Source of the DNA: a virus
IMG/VR virus record: IMGVR_UViG_3300025759_000384
Location: 1 to 32,475 of that record
DNA length: 32,475 nt
Reading direction: 5' to 3' (one strand)
In this document: in pieces, positions 19,536-32,475 of the stretch
How the letters are laid out: the number at the start of each line of letters is the position of its first letter
Numbering within the stretch: the first letter of the stretch is position 1
The notes under the pieces: generated by a model
Told to the model about the DNA's origin: nothing
Databases searched by the model: none
The model's input: the letters and a program-made list of their open reading frames with translations, nothing else
Program-made: the position numbers and the translations under genes

Positions 19536-19807
19536 TTACTTCTCCCTTCTGCAAAACCTTTAAAAGTTTTTTGTTCTTTTACTTCTTTAGGTTTTTCATT
19601 TAGCATATCTTCTTCTTGTTGAATACGTTGTAGTATTTCAAAAGCATCAAATATAGCTAGCTTTTTCGTAGCGGCAGCATTTTTAAGTCTGTCAGCGCTT
19701 ACATCATCGTCTGAGTCAACAATCTTTTCTTTTGCTACCTTAATAAGTTCCTCAACTGCTTTTTGCCCAGCTTGGATTATTTTCTTCTTCGTTTCCTTGG
19801 TATTCAT
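19532..19807 (-). CDS. Small terminase candidate, 91-aa helical protein
   Basis: The protein is short, alpha-helical and charged (MNTKETKKKIIQAGQKAVEE; then SADRLKNAAATKKLAIFDAF). It ends immediately at the terminase start (GTGA overlap) and begins inside the 3' end of the GroES-like gene, overlapping it by 56 bases. Position directly before the large terminase and the small helical form are what a small terminase subunit would show, but no helix-turn-helix is obvious and the length is low. The ATG at 19807 is the only sensible start. Coding status is well supported; function is tentative. Confidence 0.65.
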   Translation of the reverse strand: MNTKETKKKIIQAGQKAVEELIKVAKEKIVDSDDDVSADRLKNAAATKKLAIFDAFEILQRIQQEEDMLNEKPKEVKEQKTFKGFAEGRSK

Positions 19808-20345
19808 GAGTTAAAGCTATATTATTAGATTTCATACAATAAAGTCGTTCACCTTCTATAATAAACTCAAACTCAGAGTTAGGTGTAAACGTAATAAGTG
19901 TCCCAGGTGTTATTTTAAGAGCTTCTAAGGACTTGTTAGAATATTTTACTATTCCAACATTAGGTTGTTCTTTTCTGTTCTCTAAAACACTTTGGTTTTT
20001 GAGCGGTTTTACAAAGCAATAATCTAAATGTGTTTTTAAGTTATACATATAGATTTGCTCAGGAGCAACAAAATAAAGATCATCTTTAAAATAAGTTGAA
20101 CTATTTCGTTCATTTCCTTTTTGATCATACCATCTTCTAAATATATTATGATGAATATATAATTCATCTCCTATATTTATTTTAGTATTATAAGCTGCAG
20201 GAGTTGAAACTACTACAGCTTTTTTACTAACAAATCTATGATCTTCAATGCTAGTGTTGATAATAAGGTTATTACCATCAACTTGTCGTATATTGTCATA
20301 CCTTTCATTTATTGGTTTAACAATAAAATAGTATAAGCTTTTCAC
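19752..20345 (-). CDS. Tandem GroES-like co-chaperonin candidate, 197 aa
   Basis: Two GroES-like halves can be aligned by eye. Half one (about residues 4-100): YYFIVKP matches the GroES RVIVKR strand, NNLIINTSIEDHRFVSK takes the mobile-loop place, AVVVSTP the next strand, INIGDELYIHHN the VGDIVIF strand, and DDLYFVAPEQIYM the final EVLIMSESDILAI. Half two (about 107-185): YCFVKPL, GIVKYSN, ITPGTLITF, then EGERLYCMKSNNIALTHE. GroES-type phage proteins (such as T4 gp31) cap the host GroEL chamber to fold capsid protein. The start is GTG at 20345, overlapping the upstream TAG. It lies just before terminase and head genes, a sensible place for a capsid-folding helper. The similarity is from memory and has not been searched. 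Confidence 0.7.
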   Translation of the reverse strand: MKSLYYFIVKPINERYDNIRQVDGNNLIINTSIEDHRFVSKKAVVVSTPAAYNTKINIGDELYIHHNIFRRWYDQKGNERNSSTYFKDDLYFVAPEQIYMYNLKTHLDYCFVKPLKNQSVLENRKEQPNVGIVKYSNKSLEALKITPGTLITFTPNSEFEFIIEGERLYCMKSNNIALTHEYQGNEEENNPSWAKSS

Positions 20346-27986: not shown

Positions 27987-28436
27987 TTATTTATTTATTT
28001 TTGTAATTTTTTCAGCACCTCTTGATCCAAAGTATGCTACGTATACTGTAACCAGCAACGTTTTTAATAAGTTTATCCAAGCATCATCTACGTCAAATTG
28101 TAAATGAAATGAATCTACAGCCATCATAAACACTGAAGATGCAGTTAAAAATACTAAAGCTAATGGTCTAGTATTTTTGCTAAGCCATGAATCAGATTTC
28201 ATATCAGCTCTCCATCTACTTGAAACTTCTTTTAATTCTTGTAAGTCTTGTTCAATAAGCTTCATTGCTTGTTCTTTGTCAACAGCTTTAATCTTAGTAT
28301 CACTTGCTATAAGATTTTTTACTACACCTAGTGTTCCTTGATTAGGTAACACGTCACCTAATGCAGATAAAACCTTAGGAGCTTTACTAGCTAAAAAAGC
28401 GCCTACCTTAGTTTCTTTAAATGTTTTGTTTTTCAT
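27987..28436 (-). CDS. Holin-like membrane protein (GTA-type 3TM holin resemblance), 149 aa
   Basis: The N-terminal half is soluble and helical (MKNKTFKETKVGAFLASKAP to about residue 75). Then comes SSRWRADMKSDSWLSKNTRP, followed by membrane segments at about residues 93-110 (LALVFLTASSVFMMAVD) and 122-140 (INLLKTLLVTVYVAYFGS). It ends in a basic tail. The R-W-x-x-D-x-x-S-D-S-W-L-S-K-x-x-R-P motif before a membrane pair is what I recall from the holin family of gene-transfer agents. A role in letting lysin through the inner membrane is plausible, though such proteins are also annotated as structural. It overlaps the HExxH gene by four bases (ATGA), so the two are probably co-translated. Confidence 0.7.
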   Translation of the reverse strand: MKNKTFKETKVGAFLASKAPKVLSALGDVLPNQGTLGVVKNLIASDTKIKAVDKEQAMKLIEQDLQELKEVSSRWRADMKSDSWLSKNTRPLALVFLTASSVFMMAVDSFHLQFDVDDAWINLLKTLLVTVYVAYFGSRGAEKITKINK

Positions 28437-29257
28437 TGCACAAATGTATTTCTATCTGAAAAATATTTTTTTAATTGTTTTTTAGTACCTTTAGGAGTAG
28501 CTGCATGACCTGAAAAATGCGTAGCTTTTGAGTCGTGATATAGATTATCTCCACCTGTTCTCACTAAACTACTTTTAGCTAATTCATCTCCTTTTTTATT
28601 AAAATACTTTCTTCCTTTTTGTACGCCTTTACGATCTTCTACATATATAGGATTTAACTCTTTGTATTCGTTTTTAGGAATCATTAGCTTGTGCTTTGTT
28701 ATTTTGTTACCTCCAGATTTATAAGTATTTGATTTTGAAGTTCTTTTTTTAGCATAATCACTTATTCCAGGAAACCTATCACCTTCATCTGTATACACGT
28801 TAACTTTTTTGTGCTGTAATCTGTTTTTAATTTTATCTCCAGCCTTTTTAATTAATCCTCTATTAGCTAATACAGAACCTGGTTCCATTTTGCCTCTATG
28901 TCCTTTTAGTTTAAAATTTTTATTCATACCTTCTGTTTGATCATATACTTCTTTTTCCCATGGTAAATCCTTAGCACCTTCATCCATGCTAGATCTAGAA
29001 TAAGTTTTACCTTTCCAATAAACGTTTTTATCATCATAATCTAGTTTAGGAACACCATTTTTATCAAGATCATTCATTTGCTCTTGATGTAATTTTTCAT
29101 GTTTTACTACTTCTCTAAACTGCACAGGATCTGTTACTTCTTTATTAATATCTATAGTACCGTCGTTATTAGCTTTACCTAAAACGCCATTTTCCATATC
29201 AACCCTTCTTATAGGTGAGAAGTTTTTTAATAAATCATTTTTTAATTTAAAAGCCAT
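28433..29257 (-). CDS. HExxH zinc-metallopeptidase-like protein, 274 aa
   Basis: The N-terminus is MAFKLKNDLLKNFSPIRRVD. Residues 53-60 read HEKLHQEQ, an HExxHxxQ motif like that of DUF4157-type (gluzincin-like) zinc peptidases; a WEKE segment at 100-103 could supply the third Glu ligand. The rest (about 110-274) is very rich in lysine, glycine and asparagine, with a GHRGKMEPGSV segment and a KYFSDRNTFV end. No signal peptide or membrane segment is seen. Its small catalytic part may be packaged or act in the host; the substrate is unknown. The MAFKLK start is shared with the 204-residue gene. It overlaps the holin-like gene by four bases. Confidence 0.7.
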   Translation of the reverse strand: MAFKLKNDLLKNFSPIRRVDMENGVLGKANNDGTIDINKEVTDPVQFREVVKHEKLHQEQMNDLDKNGVPKLDYDDKNVYWKGKTYSRSSMDEGAKDLPWEKEVYDQTEGMNKNFKLKGHRGKMEPGSVLANRGLIKKAGDKIKNRLQHKKVNVYTDEGDRFPGISDYAKKRTSKSNTYKSGGNKITKHKLMIPKNEYKELNPIYVEDRKGVQKGRKYFNKKGDELAKSSLVRTGGDNLYHDSKATHFSGHAATPKGTKKQLKKYFSDRNTFVQ

Positions 29258-29258
29258 A

Positions 29259-29405
29259 TTATTTATTGTTATAAGGAAAATAATGATTTAATATATTTTT
29301 TCTTTTGTGGCAGCCACAACCTCCAGGTATTGAGTCTGCTAATTTTTTTATACCTGTTGCTTTTGTAAATTTTTCTATAGTATCGCCTAATCCTTTTGAT
29401 TTCAT
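29259..29405 (-). CDS. 48-aa phage protein with GLGDTIEKFTKATG and CGC motif
   Basis: This short gene was found by reading the minus strand between two larger genes. It runs from ATG at 29405 to TAA at 29259, one base before the next ATG. It starts MKSKGLGDTIEKFTKATGIK, then KLADSIPGG, a C-G-C motif at residues 30-32, HKRKNILN, and ends YFPYNNK. The layout (G-L-G-D-T-I/V-E-K, then C-G-C-x-x-R-x-x-x-L-N, then F-P-Y) is one I associate with small proteins near lysis genes of Bacteroidota phages and prophages. The cysteines may bind a metal; function is unknown. Confidence 0.7.
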   Translation of the reverse strand: MKSKGLGDTIEKFTKATGIKKLADSIPGGCGCHKRKNILNHYFPYNNK

Positions 29406-29414
29406 AATATTAAT

Positions 29415-29732
29415 TTAACAGTTCCACCTACGTCTAGCAGCTTTACCTCTTTCACCAGTCCAACCTTTTGATCTAGCACAAAATGATTTTCTTCTTTTCC
29501 AAGCTTTACTACCTTTTTTCAATTTTTTAGGATCTGTAGTTACAGCTGTTTTAAGTTTACTTCCAGGGTTTTTACGTCTATATTCTTTAACACCTTTTTC
29601 AGTCATACCACCGCCAGCTGCTCCGCCTGTAGCGCTTTTATCTTTTGACACTTTGTTAAAGTTTTTACCTCTACCAATAGTTCTTCTAGGTTCACCTGTT
29701 TTTAAAAATGGGTTATTATGTTGAATATACAT
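29415..29732 (-). CDS. Small basic protein with C-terminal Cys/Arg domain, 105 aa
   Basis: The N-terminus is MYIQHNNPFLKTGEPRRTIG; a Gly/Ala/Ser-rich middle (SATGGAAGGGMTEKG) is followed by a strongly basic domain ending KSFCARSKGWTGERGKAARR and WNC. Nearly a third of the residues are K or R. The G-S-K-A-x-K-R-R-K-S-F-C-A-R ... R-R-R-W-N-C pattern is recurrent in phage and giant-virus small proteins of unknown function. It may bind DNA or be packaged. It precedes the CGC protein and follows another basic small protein, in a run of three. Confidence 0.7.
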   Translation of the reverse strand: MYIQHNNPFLKTGEPRRTIGRGKNFNKVSKDKSATGGAAGGGMTEKGVKEYRRKNPGSKLKTAVTTDPKKLKKGSKAWKRRKSFCARSKGWTGERGKAARRRWNC

Positions 29733-29741
29733 ATCTATCTT

Positions 29742-30071
29742 TTATTCTCCACATTTTTTACTTGGATCATCGACTCTTCTCCAGTCTTCTTTTTCAAACC
29801 AGTCTCTAAGTGTAGCTCCTTTTTTACGAGCTCCTTTTACATTAGTCTTAGATGATCTTTTATATTTACCTTTAGCACCTGCAGATTTTTTAGCACTAAC
29901 AAGTTCTTTTCTTTTTTCAGCAGATAAACTTTTTATTTTAGCAGCAGGTAAACAAGTTTTAGTTGTTCCTCCACCTTTTTGTTTGTTTAATGGAGATTTT
30001 TTACAACTGCCTTTACTTCCTTTTTTGTTTAAAGGAGATGGTACGTTTTTATATCTTAAACTAAAAGACAT
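29742..30071 (-). CDS. Small basic protein with duplicated SPLNK motif, 109 aa
   Basis: The start MSFSLRYKNVPSPLNKKGSK contains SPLNK, repeated as KSPLNKQKG at about residues 24-32. A lysine-rich centre (SAEKRKELVSAKKSAGAKGK) leads to a conserved-looking end: ARKKGATLRDWFEKEDWRRV then DDPSKKCGE. It overlaps the previous stop by one base (TAATG), so translation is probably coupled. The final domain resembles short viral domains with L-R-D-W-F and C-G-x motifs, but I cannot name the family. A DNA-contacting or minor virion role is possible. Confidence 0.7.
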   Translation of the reverse strand: MSFSLRYKNVPSPLNKKGSKGSCKKSPLNKQKGGGTTKTCLPAAKIKSLSAEKRKELVSAKKSAGAKGKYKRSSKTNVKGARKKGATLRDWFEKEDWRRVDDPSKKCGE

Positions 30072-30247
30072 TATTTTTTTCTATTTCTATTACCTTTACC
30101 CATCTTACTTGGTCCACCAGCTTTAGTACATCTTACGCCCCATCCACTAGCATAAGCACTTGGCCATACTTTAAATTTCTTTTTTGCTGCTGCTTTACAA
30201 GCTGCTGATATTTTAGTTCTTTTTATACCACTTCTTTTAGTTGCCAT
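30071..30247 (-). CDS. Small basic protein with KVWPSAYASGWGVRC motif, 58 aa
   Basis: The start at 30247 (MATKRSGIKRTKISAACKAA) gives TAATG coupling with the upstream coiled-coil gene; a GTG two codons upstream is less likely. The protein is very basic, with KKKFKVWPSAYASGWGVRC at about residues 23-41 and a K/R-rich tail. The pattern F-K-x-W-P-S-A-Y-A-S-G is one I recall in small phage and giant-virus proteins. It is the first of three basic small genes and may bind nucleic acid; function is unproven. Confidence 0.7.
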   Translation of the reverse strand: MATKRSGIKRTKISAACKAAAKKKFKVWPSAYASGWGVRCTKAGGPSKMGKGNRNRKK

Positions 30248-30660
30248 TACCACTTTTTCTTTTTGCTAGGAACTTCAACTTTTTTTACTATTACAGTTGT
30301 TTTAGGTTTTCTATTTTGTAGTTCTACTAGTTTAGCGTTTAATTCATCTAGCATAGCATCAGCTTCAGTACCATCTTGTATCATAGCTGATGTTATTTTA
30401 ATTTCTTCTTTTAATATATCTTGAGTTTGCTCTAGCATCTCTACTTGATCACTCAATTGCATGATCATTTTTTCGTTCCACTCTTCTTTTAACTCATACT
30501 CTAAACGAGTTACTTCTACAGGTGGTAGCTTTTTAGCTTCTTCAATATCTGCCTGTAATGTGTAGTACATACCTACGAAAGAGGCTGTAACCATTATTAT
30601 TGCTACTACAGTTTTTAAGTCAAGTTGTATATTTGTATTTTCAGAGATCTTTGTACTCAT
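30247..30660 (-). CDS. Membrane-anchored coiled-coil protein (spanin-like position), 137 aa
   Basis: I prefer the ATG at 30660 (MSTKISENTNIQLDLKTVVA); the longer form would overlap most of the end of the amidase with an unlikely extension, while this one overlaps it by 20 bases. One membrane segment lies at about residues 17-34 (TVVAIIMVTASFVGMYYTL). It is followed by a long coiled coil (about 37-115, rich in E, K, L, Q and D) and a basic C-terminus (VKKVEVPSKKKKW). This is the shape of an inner-membrane spanin or of a membrane-tethered assembly factor. Location just after the amidase suggests a lysis role; no outer-membrane lipoprotein partner was found here. Confidence 0.7.
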   Translation of the reverse strand: MSTKISENTNIQLDLKTVVAIIMVTASFVGMYYTLQADIEEAKKLPPVEVTRLEYELKEEWNEKMIMQLSDQVEMLEQTQDILKEEIKITSAMIQDGTEADAMLDELNAKLVELQNRKPKTTVIVKKVEVPSKKKKW

Positions 30661-31054
30661 TAGTTGCATCGAATGACGGGCATGCTTTATTAGCAAACTC
30701 GTTGTGTGAATATATAGTAGCAAGCGGATACATCGCCATTAGTGTTTTAAGGACGTGTAACAAGCTTTCTTTTTGTTCTGGTGTTCTAGTATCCTTCGGC
30801 GTCTTACCATCACTCTCTACGCCTCCGCAATAACAAATTCCTATTGAATTACGATTGTGATTTTTACAATGAGCCCCGGTTTTATCTATATCTCTTCCTT
30901 TTTTAATAGTGCCATCGAGTTCGATGTAAAAATGATAGCCTATGTCTGTCCAACCTCTACCTTCAACGTGCCACTTCTTAATAGTTTCAACAGGTATATG
31001 TTGTCCTTCTCTTGTAGCAGAGCAATGTACTATAATCTCATTTATACTTCTCAT
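30641..31054 (-). CDS. Endolysin: N-acetylmuramoyl-L-alanine amidase (T7 lysozyme type)
   Basis: The 137-residue protein is a single Amidase_2 domain. Zinc ligands by alignment with T7 lysozyme are H10 (IIVHCSATR), H117 (IYSHNEFAN) and C125 (KACPSFD); the catalytic Y40 (GYHFYIE) and K123 are present. It cleaves the bond between N-acetylmuramic acid and L-alanine in peptidoglycan. No signal peptide is seen, so it needs a holin; a holin-like 53-residue gene sits directly upstream and overlaps its start (ATGA). In T7 the same protein also inhibits RNA polymerase, which cannot be judged here. The length and residues look intact, so it should be active. Confidence 0.93.
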   Translation of the reverse strand: MRSINEIIVHCSATREGQHIPVETIKKWHVEGRGWTDIGYHFYIELDGTIKKGRDIDKTGAHCKNHNRNSIGICYCGGVESDGKTPKDTRTPEQKESLLHVLKTLMAMYPLATIYSHNEFANKACPSFDATNEYKDL

Positions 31055-31212
31055 TTCTTATTCTTATGTAATAATAACCATTTGTGGACTGTGTATCCTA
31101 TAGTTAAAGCTAATAATAATATTTCTAATGCTGGTTCTATCCAGTTTAAACTAGCTAAAGCAAATGAAGATGCATTTAACAAATACAGCTTCAAATCTTC
31201 TGCACCTATCAC
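31051..31212 (-). CDS. Small holin-like membrane protein, 53 aa
   Basis: This short gene was found by reading the gap upstream of the amidase. It starts at GTG 31212, overlapping the TGA of the previous small gene (GTGA), and ends with TGA overlapping the amidase ATG (ATGA). It opens MIGAEDLKLYLLNASSFALA, followed by a short turn and a strong hydrophobic segment (PALEILLLALTIGYTVHKWL, residues 27-46), ending LLHKNKK. That gives one clear and one weak membrane segment with a positive C-terminus, a typical class II-like holin shape. Tight coupling to the amidase supports a holin role; the start choice rests on the overlap. Confidence 0.7.
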   Translation of the reverse strand: MIGAEDLKLYLLNASSFALASLNWIEPALEILLLALTIGYTVHKWLLLHKNKK

Positions 31213-31376
31213 TTGTTAGCGTTGAGCACTGGATTTCCTTTATACGTACAATTATCTATCTCTAGTGTAGATTTTATTGTAGTATTTCTAGAAACCATTA
31301 CTCTTTTACCTAATGGTTTTTGAGCTGGGCTTATATCCACTCCAGCTGGCTTTTGATATTCTCCTATACTTGGCAT
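31209..31376 (-). CDS. Short ORF upstream of the lysis genes, 55 aa
   Basis: It runs from ATG 31376, two bases after the stop of the 145-residue gene, to TGA 31209, and overlaps the holin-like gene by four bases (GTGA). It starts MPSIGEYQKPAGVDISPAQK and ends YKGNPVLNANK with one cysteine. No motif or membrane segment is seen. The gene is supported by the tight junctions on both sides and the full use of the space; function is unknown. Confidence 0.6.
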   Translation of the reverse strand: MPSIGEYQKPAGVDISPAQKPLGKRVMVSRNTTIKSTLEIDNCTYKGNPVLNANK

Positions 31377-31378
31377 AG

Positions 31379-31816
31379 TTAATTTTTTAATTGTTTGTTA
31401 AATAGTGATCCTTTAGTTTCTATTTCAGGATCTGCTACTGACATAGGTCTAGTATCACTGAAATTTGGTCTAGCACTACCAGTTCCATTTGTAGCTGGAT
31501 CTTGCACTGTGCTTGTCATAAATTCTTTAAAGTTTAATGGAGTAGCTGGAGCAAAAGGTGCTGGGGCAACAAGTGATGGATCTTGATTTACATCTTGAGG
31601 TTGCTCTTCCATTGCGCCAACTAGCGTATCTAGTTTTTCGTTTATAGAGTCAAGTTTGTTATCTTCGTGCTCGCCAGACATCTGAGCTCCAGTAGCTTTA
31701 GCTAATCCTTTTATGCCTCCTCCATATTCTTTTCTATTTACAAAACCTTTTGCAAGGTTTTTAGCTAAGCCTAAGCCTCCCATGCCTAAAACTCCTATAT
31801 TCAATGGACTACTCAT
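31379..31816 (-). CDS. Low-complexity protein of unknown function, 145 aa
   Basis: It starts MSSPLNIGVLGMGGLGLAKN, a glycine-rich hydrophobic N-terminus carrying SPLN, then an acidic linker and a proline/alanine-rich middle (VAPAPFAPATPLNFKEFMTS, about residues 83-102). It ends KGSLFNKQLKN. No enzymatic motif is visible. It overlaps the 204-residue gene by eight bases. The SPLN start resembles the openings of neighbouring small proteins. It could be a minor structural or membrane-associated protein; coding nature is likely but function is not known. Confidence 0.65.
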   Translation of the reverse strand: MSSPLNIGVLGMGGLGLAKNLAKGFVNRKEYGGGIKGLAKATGAQMSGEHEDNKLDSINEKLDTLVGAMEEQPQDVNQDPSLVAPAPFAPATPLNFKEFMTSTVQDPATNGTGSARPNFSDTRPMSVADPEIETKGSLFNKQLKN

Positions 31817-32423
31817 AAGGCTGACCTTTCTTTGCTAAAGTTGACATTAAATTTTCTTTAGCTGCTTTTTTAACAGACTTGTATTTAGCCGGAGTATTAT
31901 CCTCCATAGACTTTAACATTTTCATTGGCCCGCCGGCTCTGTTTGGCTTTCCTTTCATATCTAATAAACTTAATTTTTCATTTAATTTCTTCTCTTGAGC
32001 ACCTATATCTTCTAATTTTTTAGATTGATCTTCGTATATATCTAATCTTTTTTCAGCCAAGTCCATATTAGTCATACCAAACTTATTACCAAAATATCTT
32101 TCAGACATCTTCTCTGCTTTTTTAGTTTGTCTTTCTTCTCTTTGAACTTGTCTTAACTTTGATTTATCTTTTGCTATTTTAAGTCTCATTTCCTGTTTAG
32201 GATTTAAACCTAATGGAATACCTTCGTCAGCTTTTTTATATGCTTCTTCTACTTGTTCTTTTGGATTAGTTTCTGTTTTTACTTCTTGATTACCTTCAGC
32301 CATAGGAACTATTAAGCCTTGCTGCATGCCGCTAACACCTGTTTCTCTTTTAACACTAGTAGGTTTGTTTAGTGTTTGCTCTACTGTTACTATATTAAAT
32401 GGTGATTTTAATTTAAAAGCCAT
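31809..32423 (-). CDS. Lysine-rich coiled-coil protein with MAFKLKSPFN start, 204 aa
   Basis: I place the start at the ATG at 32423 (MAFKLKSPFNIVTVEQTLNK); the longer frame from 32456 would overlap the end of an upstream gene and lacks the shared MAFKLK opening. Residues ~50-150 are helical and highly charged, rich in K, E, Q and R (KLRQVQREERQTKKAEKMSE), with a GNKFGMTNMDLAEKRLDIYE segment; the end is basic. No motif is recognised. The MAFKLK start recurs in the HExxH protein. It may be packaged or DNA-contacting, but function is unknown. Confidence 0.65.
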   Translation of the reverse strand: MAFKLKSPFNIVTVEQTLNKPTSVKRETGVSGMQQGLIVPMAEGNQEVKTETNPKEQVEEAYKKADEGIPLGLNPKQEMRLKIAKDKSKLRQVQREERQTKKAEKMSERYFGNKFGMTNMDLAEKRLDIYEDQSKKLEDIGAQEKKLNEKLSLLDMKGKPNRAGGPMKMLKSMEDNTPAKYKSVKKAAKENLMSTLAKKGQPYE

Positions 32424-32424
32424 A

Positions 32425-32475
32425 TTATCTTGTTTTGTCTTTGTTAACGTAATCAATAGCTTTAGCTGTTACTTT
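32425..32475 (-). CDS. C-terminal end of an upstream gene (runs off right edge)
   Basis: On the minus strand the frame reads KVTAKAIDYVNKDKTR then TAA, with the stop one base before the ATG of the 204-residue gene (TAATATG). Only 16 codons and the stop are visible, so nothing can be said about function. The gene is inferred from the tight packing seen throughout and from the clean frame. Confidence 0.45.
   Translation of the reverse strand, partial: KVTAKAIDYVNKDKTR

Follow-up and report, generated by a model that had tools for sequence, protein, structure and literature searches.

What does a protein with a zinc-peptidase motif do in the late region of an uncultivated virus, and why does it begin with the same residues as a second late protein whose body is unrelated to it? 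The gene lies in a 32.5-kb virus record (IMGVR_UViG_3300025759_000384), the whole of which was analyzed and which we call the window. The original prediction placed it at 28433-29257; these coordinates are right, and the gene is on the minus strand, as are the main genes of the window. Compared with the window's terminase, that of the podovirus record MW202828 has 65% identity, and the Flavobacterium, Cellulophaga and Tenacibaculum phage terminases among the matches listed have 31-45%; from these identities we infer that the host is likely to belong to the Bacteroidota. Our preferred reading, which is tentative, is that the protein is a late, tag-bearing minimal zinc peptidase that would be sent wherever the small basic late proteins go, probably to the virion, in a manner resembling that of T4.

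In the order of transcription, the region begins with tag-bearing proteins, an amidase (Amidase_2 in Pfam) and small basic proteins that include a DUF6321 member; then come a 48-aa peptide with a CGC motif, the 274-aa peptidase ORF and a holin-like gene, followed by fiber-like genes, terminase, portal and virion structural genes. This is a late position, with the lysis and small-protein block on one side and the fiber, terminase, portal and capsid genes on the other. The relevant features are:

31809..32423, minus strand: late protein with the tag MAFKLKSPFN and a body unrelated to the peptidase (ATG at 32423)
31379..31816, minus strand: late protein starting with MSSPLN
29742..30071, minus strand: basic protein with the tag-like MSFSLRYKNVPSPLNKKG
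29415..29732, minus strand: DUF6321 protein (E 2.8e-11) with the tag-like MYIQHNNPFLK
29259..29405, minus strand: 48-aa CGC-motif peptide directly upstream of the peptidase, a conserved neighbor (PHROG matches without function, E 2.5e-6 and 0.0014)
28433..29257, minus strand: 274-aa ORF with an N-terminal tag, a minimal gluzincin-like domain and a basic C-terminal extension (from the ORF translation, relatives and AF2)
29231..29257, minus strand: N-terminal tag region MAFKLKNDL, residues 1-9 (a degenerate form of the pattern MAFK-x-x-S/N/P-P-F/Y/L; predicted to be disordered)
28922..29224, minus strand: minimal gluzincin-like domain, residues 12-112 (from AF2 pLDDT and dN/dS)
29078..29101, minus strand: HEKLHQEQ, residues 53-60, with two predicted His ligands and the predicted catalytic Glu (from conservation)
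28955..28957, minus strand: E101 of WEKE, predicted third zinc ligand (from conservation)
28436..28921, minus strand: basic C-terminal extension, residues 113-274, missing in most relatives (from composition, lengths and dN/dS)
27987..28436, minus strand: holin-like gene (phrog_3427, E 2.4e-19) that overlaps the stop codon of the peptidase gene

The ATGA overlap with the holin-like gene and the MAFKLK start common to a second protein, both pointed out in the original prediction, are evident from this list. Elsewhere on the minus strand of the window (19752-20345), a 197-aa protein matches the PHROG co-chaperonin GroES (phrog_13932, E 3.4e-21); in related contigs a groEL-groES pair lies upstream of the module.

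The case for a peptidase starts with HEKLHQEQ (residues 53-60) and WEKE (residues 100-103). In 200,000 shuffles of the window protein, HExxH arose by chance in 1.1% and HExxHxxQ in 0.03%. A scan of viral contigs found 194 relatives, and all of the best 80, which were kept, have HExxHxxQ, which is therefore not there by chance. The peptides used for retrieval (YDDKNVYW and WEKEVYDQ, for example) did not include HExxH, so that the conservation of YDDKNVYW and WEKE is partly selected by them but that of HExxH is not. Across the 59 distinct rows of these relatives, H53, E54, H57, Q60, W100, E101 and E103 are invariant. For a less biased sample, 80 terminase loci were gathered and the peptidase was then sought with a domain profile. 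It was recognized in 23 of them, many of the others being too short to reach the gene; HExxH and W-E101 were present in all 23 and Q60 in 18, whereas E103 was replaced in several. In a 19-row alignment, H53, E54, H57, Q60, G83 and E101 are also common to the relatives from the cultured phages XacN1, Melnitz, P-SSM2, vB_OspM_OC, pT24 and phiM12, and E101 is invariant in all 19 rows, these six distant relatives having been found through a similarity that includes HExxH.

The motif pointed out earlier at HEKLHQEQ is thus confirmed, and homologues keep it, most fully in its HExxH part. A third ligand had been proposed within WEKE, and we can narrow this to E101, which is likely to be that ligand because it is kept in all sampled relatives while E103 varies; E103, varying among the terminase-sampled relatives, was rejected. 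The domain is under purifying selection (dN/dS 0.04-0.25 in 11 pairs). One could imagine an inactive binding protein that merely keeps the zincin fold, and the drift of E103 and Q60 in some relatives would fit, but HExxH and E101 are kept in 23/23 terminase-sampled relatives, including a catalytic Glu for which a mere binder would have no need, and we consider this explanation very improbable. Four loci whose terminases are 77-87% identical to the window's (L103, L107, L111 and L127) encode peptidases of 390-470 aa with long C-terminal parts, in which HExxHLxD/E/A replaces HExxHxxQ.

AF2 models the domain with a mean pLDDT of 81.7 and a pTM of 0.72 (pLDDT 79-92 by blocks over residues 11-110); pLDDT is below 50 for residues 1-11, with a mean of 41 over residues 1-10. 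The model has strands at 16-19, 27-29 and 35-38 and a helix at 44-62 that carries HExxH, then strands at 72-74, 78-81 and 84-87 and a helix at 99-113 that carries WExE, so that the gluzincin hallmark, HExxH in one helix and a Glu in the following one, is present. In such a site zinc would be bound by H53, H57 and E101, with E54 as the residue that activates the water molecule.

Structure comparison with VIA-align, in which a Z below 8 may mean only a common arrangement, placed IrrE (3dte; Z 5.8 over 91 residues) and selecase (4qhf; Z 5.5 over 72 residues) at the top, with further matches to a DPC-repair protease (6mdx, which we take to be SprT-type; Z 5.4), ArdC (5.0), abylysin (4.5), jannalysin (4.1) and Wss1 (4.0); the list also has toxin rows. 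In a fold search CapP matched with a Z of 3.9, and Foldseek against the PDB weakly returned selecase and jannalysin first (E 0.2-0.5, best 0.23). The leading fold matches are zincins by title, with modest scores. When PDB sequences were searched with the profile (E up to 10), the one chain listed was an aspartyl/asparaginyl beta-hydroxylase (E 7.4).

The closest structural parallel may be with the minigluzincins (selecase; abylysin, 4jiu; jannalysin, 4jix), which likewise consist of a single catalytic domain of ~100 aa with an HExxH helix and to which the predicted fold appears similar at the modest Z values given above. In the archaeal minigluzincins the Glu ligand lies in a later helix. The phage family differs in its conserved YDDKNVYWKG between the two helices and its N-terminal tag, and the profile search listed no sequence-level match to the PDB chains of these enzymes; moreover, the minigluzincins are archaeal and two are titled zymogens, whereas this is a phage late protein. 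For IrrE/PprI and ImmA (Peptidase_M78), the likeness consists of the top VIA-align match and the annotation of two relatives in cultured phages as such, but Pfam matches to M78 are only weak, and the stand-alone phage members are too short to hold the extra domains that IrrE has beyond its peptidase domain.

In the family libraries, PHROG 10499 and 16532 match two stand-alone members (4e-8 to 4e-10). Among the Pfam matches listed, which are weak, the putative metallopeptidase DUF6782 matches 38 of 53 members (best E 2.7e-4), followed by M91, M76, M78 and SprT; where bits are shown for members, they are under the cut-off. Peptidase_M78 (PF06114) stayed below its gathering score, with 9/53 members at E up to 1 (best 0.057; 11.7 of the required 22 bits for the L062 member), and SprT-like (PF10263) was weakly matched by 7/53 (best E 0.0038; 22.4 of 25.6 bits for the Melnitz relative). 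The original prediction had labeled the domain as DUF4157-type, but Pfam eCIS_core (PF13699), which we take to be DUF4157, was weakly matched by 1 of 53 members (E 0.17), and the window protein has no listed match to PF06114, PF10263 or PF13699. We have dropped that label, since both the fold comparison and the profile searches favor gluzincins of the minigluzincin/IrrE/SprT-like kind, together with PHROG 10499/16532. The six cultured-phage relatives, which we group with PHROG 10499, 16532, 25728 and 87, have WKG and PWExEA in varied forms but are 140-191 aa long and lack the MAFK start; PHROG 87 is called a metallo-protease and the other three have no function in the library. From the conserved residues and the modeled core, we file the protein as a putative gluzincin-like minimal peptidase related to PHROG 10499/16532, resembling the minigluzincins but with no claim of membership. 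Both its sequence and its predicted fold support well the metallopeptidase-like nature first proposed; taken alone, the peptidase adds a new lineage to a kind already known.

The window protein is longer than most of its kind: 75 of the best 80 of the 194 relatives are at most 110 aa long, and the core is therefore a stand-alone domain of ~100 aa. Longer C-terminal parts, differing in sequence, are found in the window, L001-L003, L005/L006 and five terminase-sampled relatives. The basic tail described in the original prediction is real: residues 113-274 have a pI of 10.2 and 19% Lys, compared with a pI of 5.2 for residues 1-112. Model confidence for the extension is mostly low, somewhat better for residues 149-201, and its dN/dS is 0.51-0.90 between distant members and 0.16 in the close pair L001/L002. 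In the reading that we prefer, the extension would be a lineage-specific addition, perhaps another cargo-like, DNA-binding segment. We also considered that it might be a fused copy of a downstream tagged gene (c41/c50), but the likeness seen by eye between FKLKGHRGKMEPG and FKMKPGRGNMPKTG failed a shuffle test, the alignment scores of four extensions being equaled by 103, 75, 150 and 60 of 300 shuffles.

The pI of the extension, the structure matches to Wss1 and to a DPC-repair protease, and the weak SprT matches in relatives would all suit a SprT/Wss1-type protease linked to DNA. In this scheme the basic extension or the basic neighbors would attach to DNA, and proteins sitting on the phage DNA would be cleared or trimmed by the enzyme; passages of PMC4559962 also group Wss1/Spartan with the minigluzincins. 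Such a role is nonetheless improbable, given that 75/80 relatives lack the extension, that the family searches named no DNA-binding domain, and that members with bits shown fall below the SprT Pfam cut-off.

Where relatives have the peptidase gene, it is in most cases at a conserved place. The CGC peptide (type GLGD..EKFTKATGIK...CGCxKRK, also encoded by MW202828, L087) directly precedes the peptidase gene in 54 of 77 loci. On the downstream side, a holin-like gene is the very next one in 32 of 79 loci and lies no more than three genes away in 57; 18 of the 32 adjacent pairs overlap by 1, 4 or 8 bases. The ATGA overlap noted in the original prediction is there in the window, but immediate adjacency to a holin-like gene is limited to those 32 loci. 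Where the next gene is not holin-like, it often encodes a small late protein with SP motifs.

These neighbors, together with the amidase gene near the peptidase in the window, could point to a protease of the lysis module that acts with the holin-like protein and the CGC peptide, for example by cutting an envelope protein or a lysis regulator. What speaks for a lysis factor, however, is entirely this neighborhood. Against it, the adjacency is not universal, the genes being often separated by other small late ones; inspection by eye showed neither a signal peptide nor a membrane helix; and the module is made up mostly of small basic proteins rather than lysis genes. We regard a lysis role as unlikely.

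The gene is common but not universal among relatives. It is present in 15 of the 17 terminase-sampled loci that span the module (upstream conserved gene and terminase both present) and, by another count restricted to terminase loci whose sequence extends 3 kb or more beyond the holin-like gene on its upstream side, in 11 of 17. The loci without it by the latter count are L129, L132, L137, L140, L153 and L175, and in L132, L137 and L140 long fiber-like genes fill the side upstream of the holin-like gene. It was not found in three cultured relatives, each read in part (MW202828, elemoF_6-3D and phi38:1). A tblastn search of 50,697 phage records with the window protein gave no match at E up to 1; with a stand-alone relative as query, 25 records matched (best E 6e-6), six of which were examined. 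In bacterial genomes we found five loci, all in metagenome-assembled genomes of mixed taxa, and we read these as binned phage contigs.

Absence from some relatives (6/17 by one count) is what one might expect of a protease for host takeover or counter-defense, of the IrrE/ImmA, ArdC or MPTase kind, that cuts a host regulator or defense protein in the infected cell. The fold matches include IrrE, ArdC and CapP, and passages of PMC5512222 and PMC7824862 discuss phage zincin domains as conflict effectors or processing enzymes. Set against this are the late structural region and the conserved place of the gene in most relatives that have it, as well as the lack of a PADLOC match for the two proteins tried, on which basis membership in a defense system was dropped. 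Such a protease seems to us a rather unlikely explanation, if a slightly better one than a lysis role.

The remaining evidence, that for a tagged late peptidase, comes from the N-terminal residues. F3 and K4 are found in 55/59 rows of relatives, and in 80 loci plus the window MAFK also starts 7 unique non-peptidase proteins in 5 clusters, compared with 0.22 expected. Of 160 cluster representatives, 32 have a loose SP motif within their first 40 residues, against 5.8 expected and 3 for the reversed motif, but this motif was selected after reading the sequences, and a scan for MAFKxKSP with a swapped control is the fairer test. For that scan, viral contigs were searched for DNA encoding M-A-F-K-x-K-S/T/R-P, a tag that these same phages had brought to notice; four or more of the contigs found had already been met in the scan for peptidase relatives. 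It gave 98 matches in 93 stretches; 96 of them open into ORFs of at least 30 aa, and 76 lie within 15 codons of the preceding stop. When residues 2 and 3 were exchanged as a control, there were 18 matches, 3 of them at ORF starts, all of one family.

The 98 matches correspond to 67 distinct proteins longer than 45 aa (23 of them peptidases) plus shorter ones; clusters, codon bases and basicity were taken from all 93 stretches, and the counts of loci lacking the peptidase or the clade markers, as well as the comparison of bodies by eye, from 80 of them. Past residue 12, the bodies form up to 20 BLAST clusters, an upper bound for unrelated families given BLASTP at 1e-4 on short proteins, and the largest is the peptidase (37/91, confirmed by profile). 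Nearly all of the non-peptidase tagged proteins longer than 45 aa are net basic (51/54). The third bases of the Ala and Pro codons of the tag vary, which argues for selection on the protein. The tag is also a separable module, because it is missing from the starts of the three homologues that we read in other phages, of Pelagibacter, Methylophilales and Synechococcus; these belong to two tagged families (one DUF6321 protein, the Pelagibacter one, and two of c35 type). Nor does it need the peptidase or serve solely as its partner, since 29/80 tag loci have no peptidase in the stretch examined; 24/80 have no marker of this phage clade. In the small terminase-sampled set, tag-like neighbors accompany the peptidase in 8/15 loci and are found in 0/5 loci that lack it, which is only suggestive (P = 0.055). 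The start codons of the 23 terminase-sampled relatives were chosen partly by an M-x-FK pattern, so that the start positions, but not the presence of FK, lean toward the tag. A full-text search of 5.39 million papers turned up no description of the tag, the one paper listed being about calmodulin.

This pattern suggests that the tagged proteins have the same destination, possibly the virus particle, and so lends indirect support to the packaged protease raised in the original prediction. The first ~9-12 residues form a modular tag, predicted to be disordered, that the enzyme shares with unrelated late proteins, small and for the most part basic, both in its own phage and in others. In the reading that we prefer, this tag would most likely bring all its bearers to a common site as the particle is assembled, probably within the virion (the assembling head). 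There the peptidase would remove the tags, cleave the proteins that bear them, or enter the next host along with them at ejection. Of the 30 window ORFs scanned, which exclude the terminase and one small ORF, PHROG named none as a prohead protease, several structural ORFs having no named function and the window being a fragment.

There are precedents for the elements of this proposal. According to passages of PMC9026906, the first 10 residues of divergent T4 internal proteins direct them into the head, and the propeptides of gp21 are suspected to target that protease. The likeness is to a short N-terminal sequence on divergent basic late proteins, of which the protease may carry a similar one; it is drawn at the sequence level, packaging and cleavage here being proposals. 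The tag sequence is different, and T4 gp21 is a serine peptidase (passages of PMC7824862) whereas this family is of the HExxH type. Other passages of PMC7824862 propose that a zincin of some jumbo phages acts in maturation, and passages of PMC5512222 propose that the MPTase/zincin domains found in polyvalent proteins of phages, whose genes lie close to those for late virion proteins, process co-delivered proteins. Those MPTases are described there as parts of multidomain proteins. Here the peptidase is mostly separate (stand-alone in 75/80 relatives, and joined in the window to an extension with no named domain), and the candidate cargo consists of separate small proteins. A broader proposal, which we hold with more doubt, is that in these marine phages, apparently of Bacteroidota, the tag loads small basic proteins along with the phage's own tagged zinc protease, which would mature them or act with them after ejection, as an independently evolved metalloprotease counterpart of the T4 targeting sequence and gp21.

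Should the tag prove to address cargo to the virion, one could read from it which unknown small proteins are carried together by uncultivated marine phages, and it might serve for loading proteins into particles. If the proposal is true, the peptidase would also be a natural zinc protease of very small size whose substrates could be guessed. Even otherwise, a phage metallopeptidase family left unnamed by the libraries is now tied to a defined genomic module.

The tag has looser forms (MAYxQxNNP, MSSPLN and MKSPF; window 29415-32456 and loci L182-L274) beside its main form, MAFK[LM]KSP[FL]. By eye, the body of the window protein at 29742..30071 resembles a body (LPAAK...KGATLRDWF) that follows MAFKLKSPL in other contigs. 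Three stretches with no marker of this clade (L219, L228 and L258) have runs of two to four consecutive small tagged genes, with four tag-like starts in a row in L219, and possibly represent a second phage group that uses the same tag. A small SPF-tagged domain, NKGKFTAWAKKNGFKDACSAASAVM (cluster c17; L004, L025 and others), has homologues inside larger Crassvirales proteins (L180 4001-4183, where it adjoins a stabilization-protein gene, and L181 3001-3162) and is possibly a cargo-protein domain. Passages of PMC10172136 describe Crassvirales gp45 as cargo; a possible link of the c17 domain to gp45 is kept as a lead only. Finally, the short proteins of cluster c0 (for example, L034 192-581 and L047 4940-5380) are strikingly repetitive, with repeats of SPAKM, DSAMKM and MGH.
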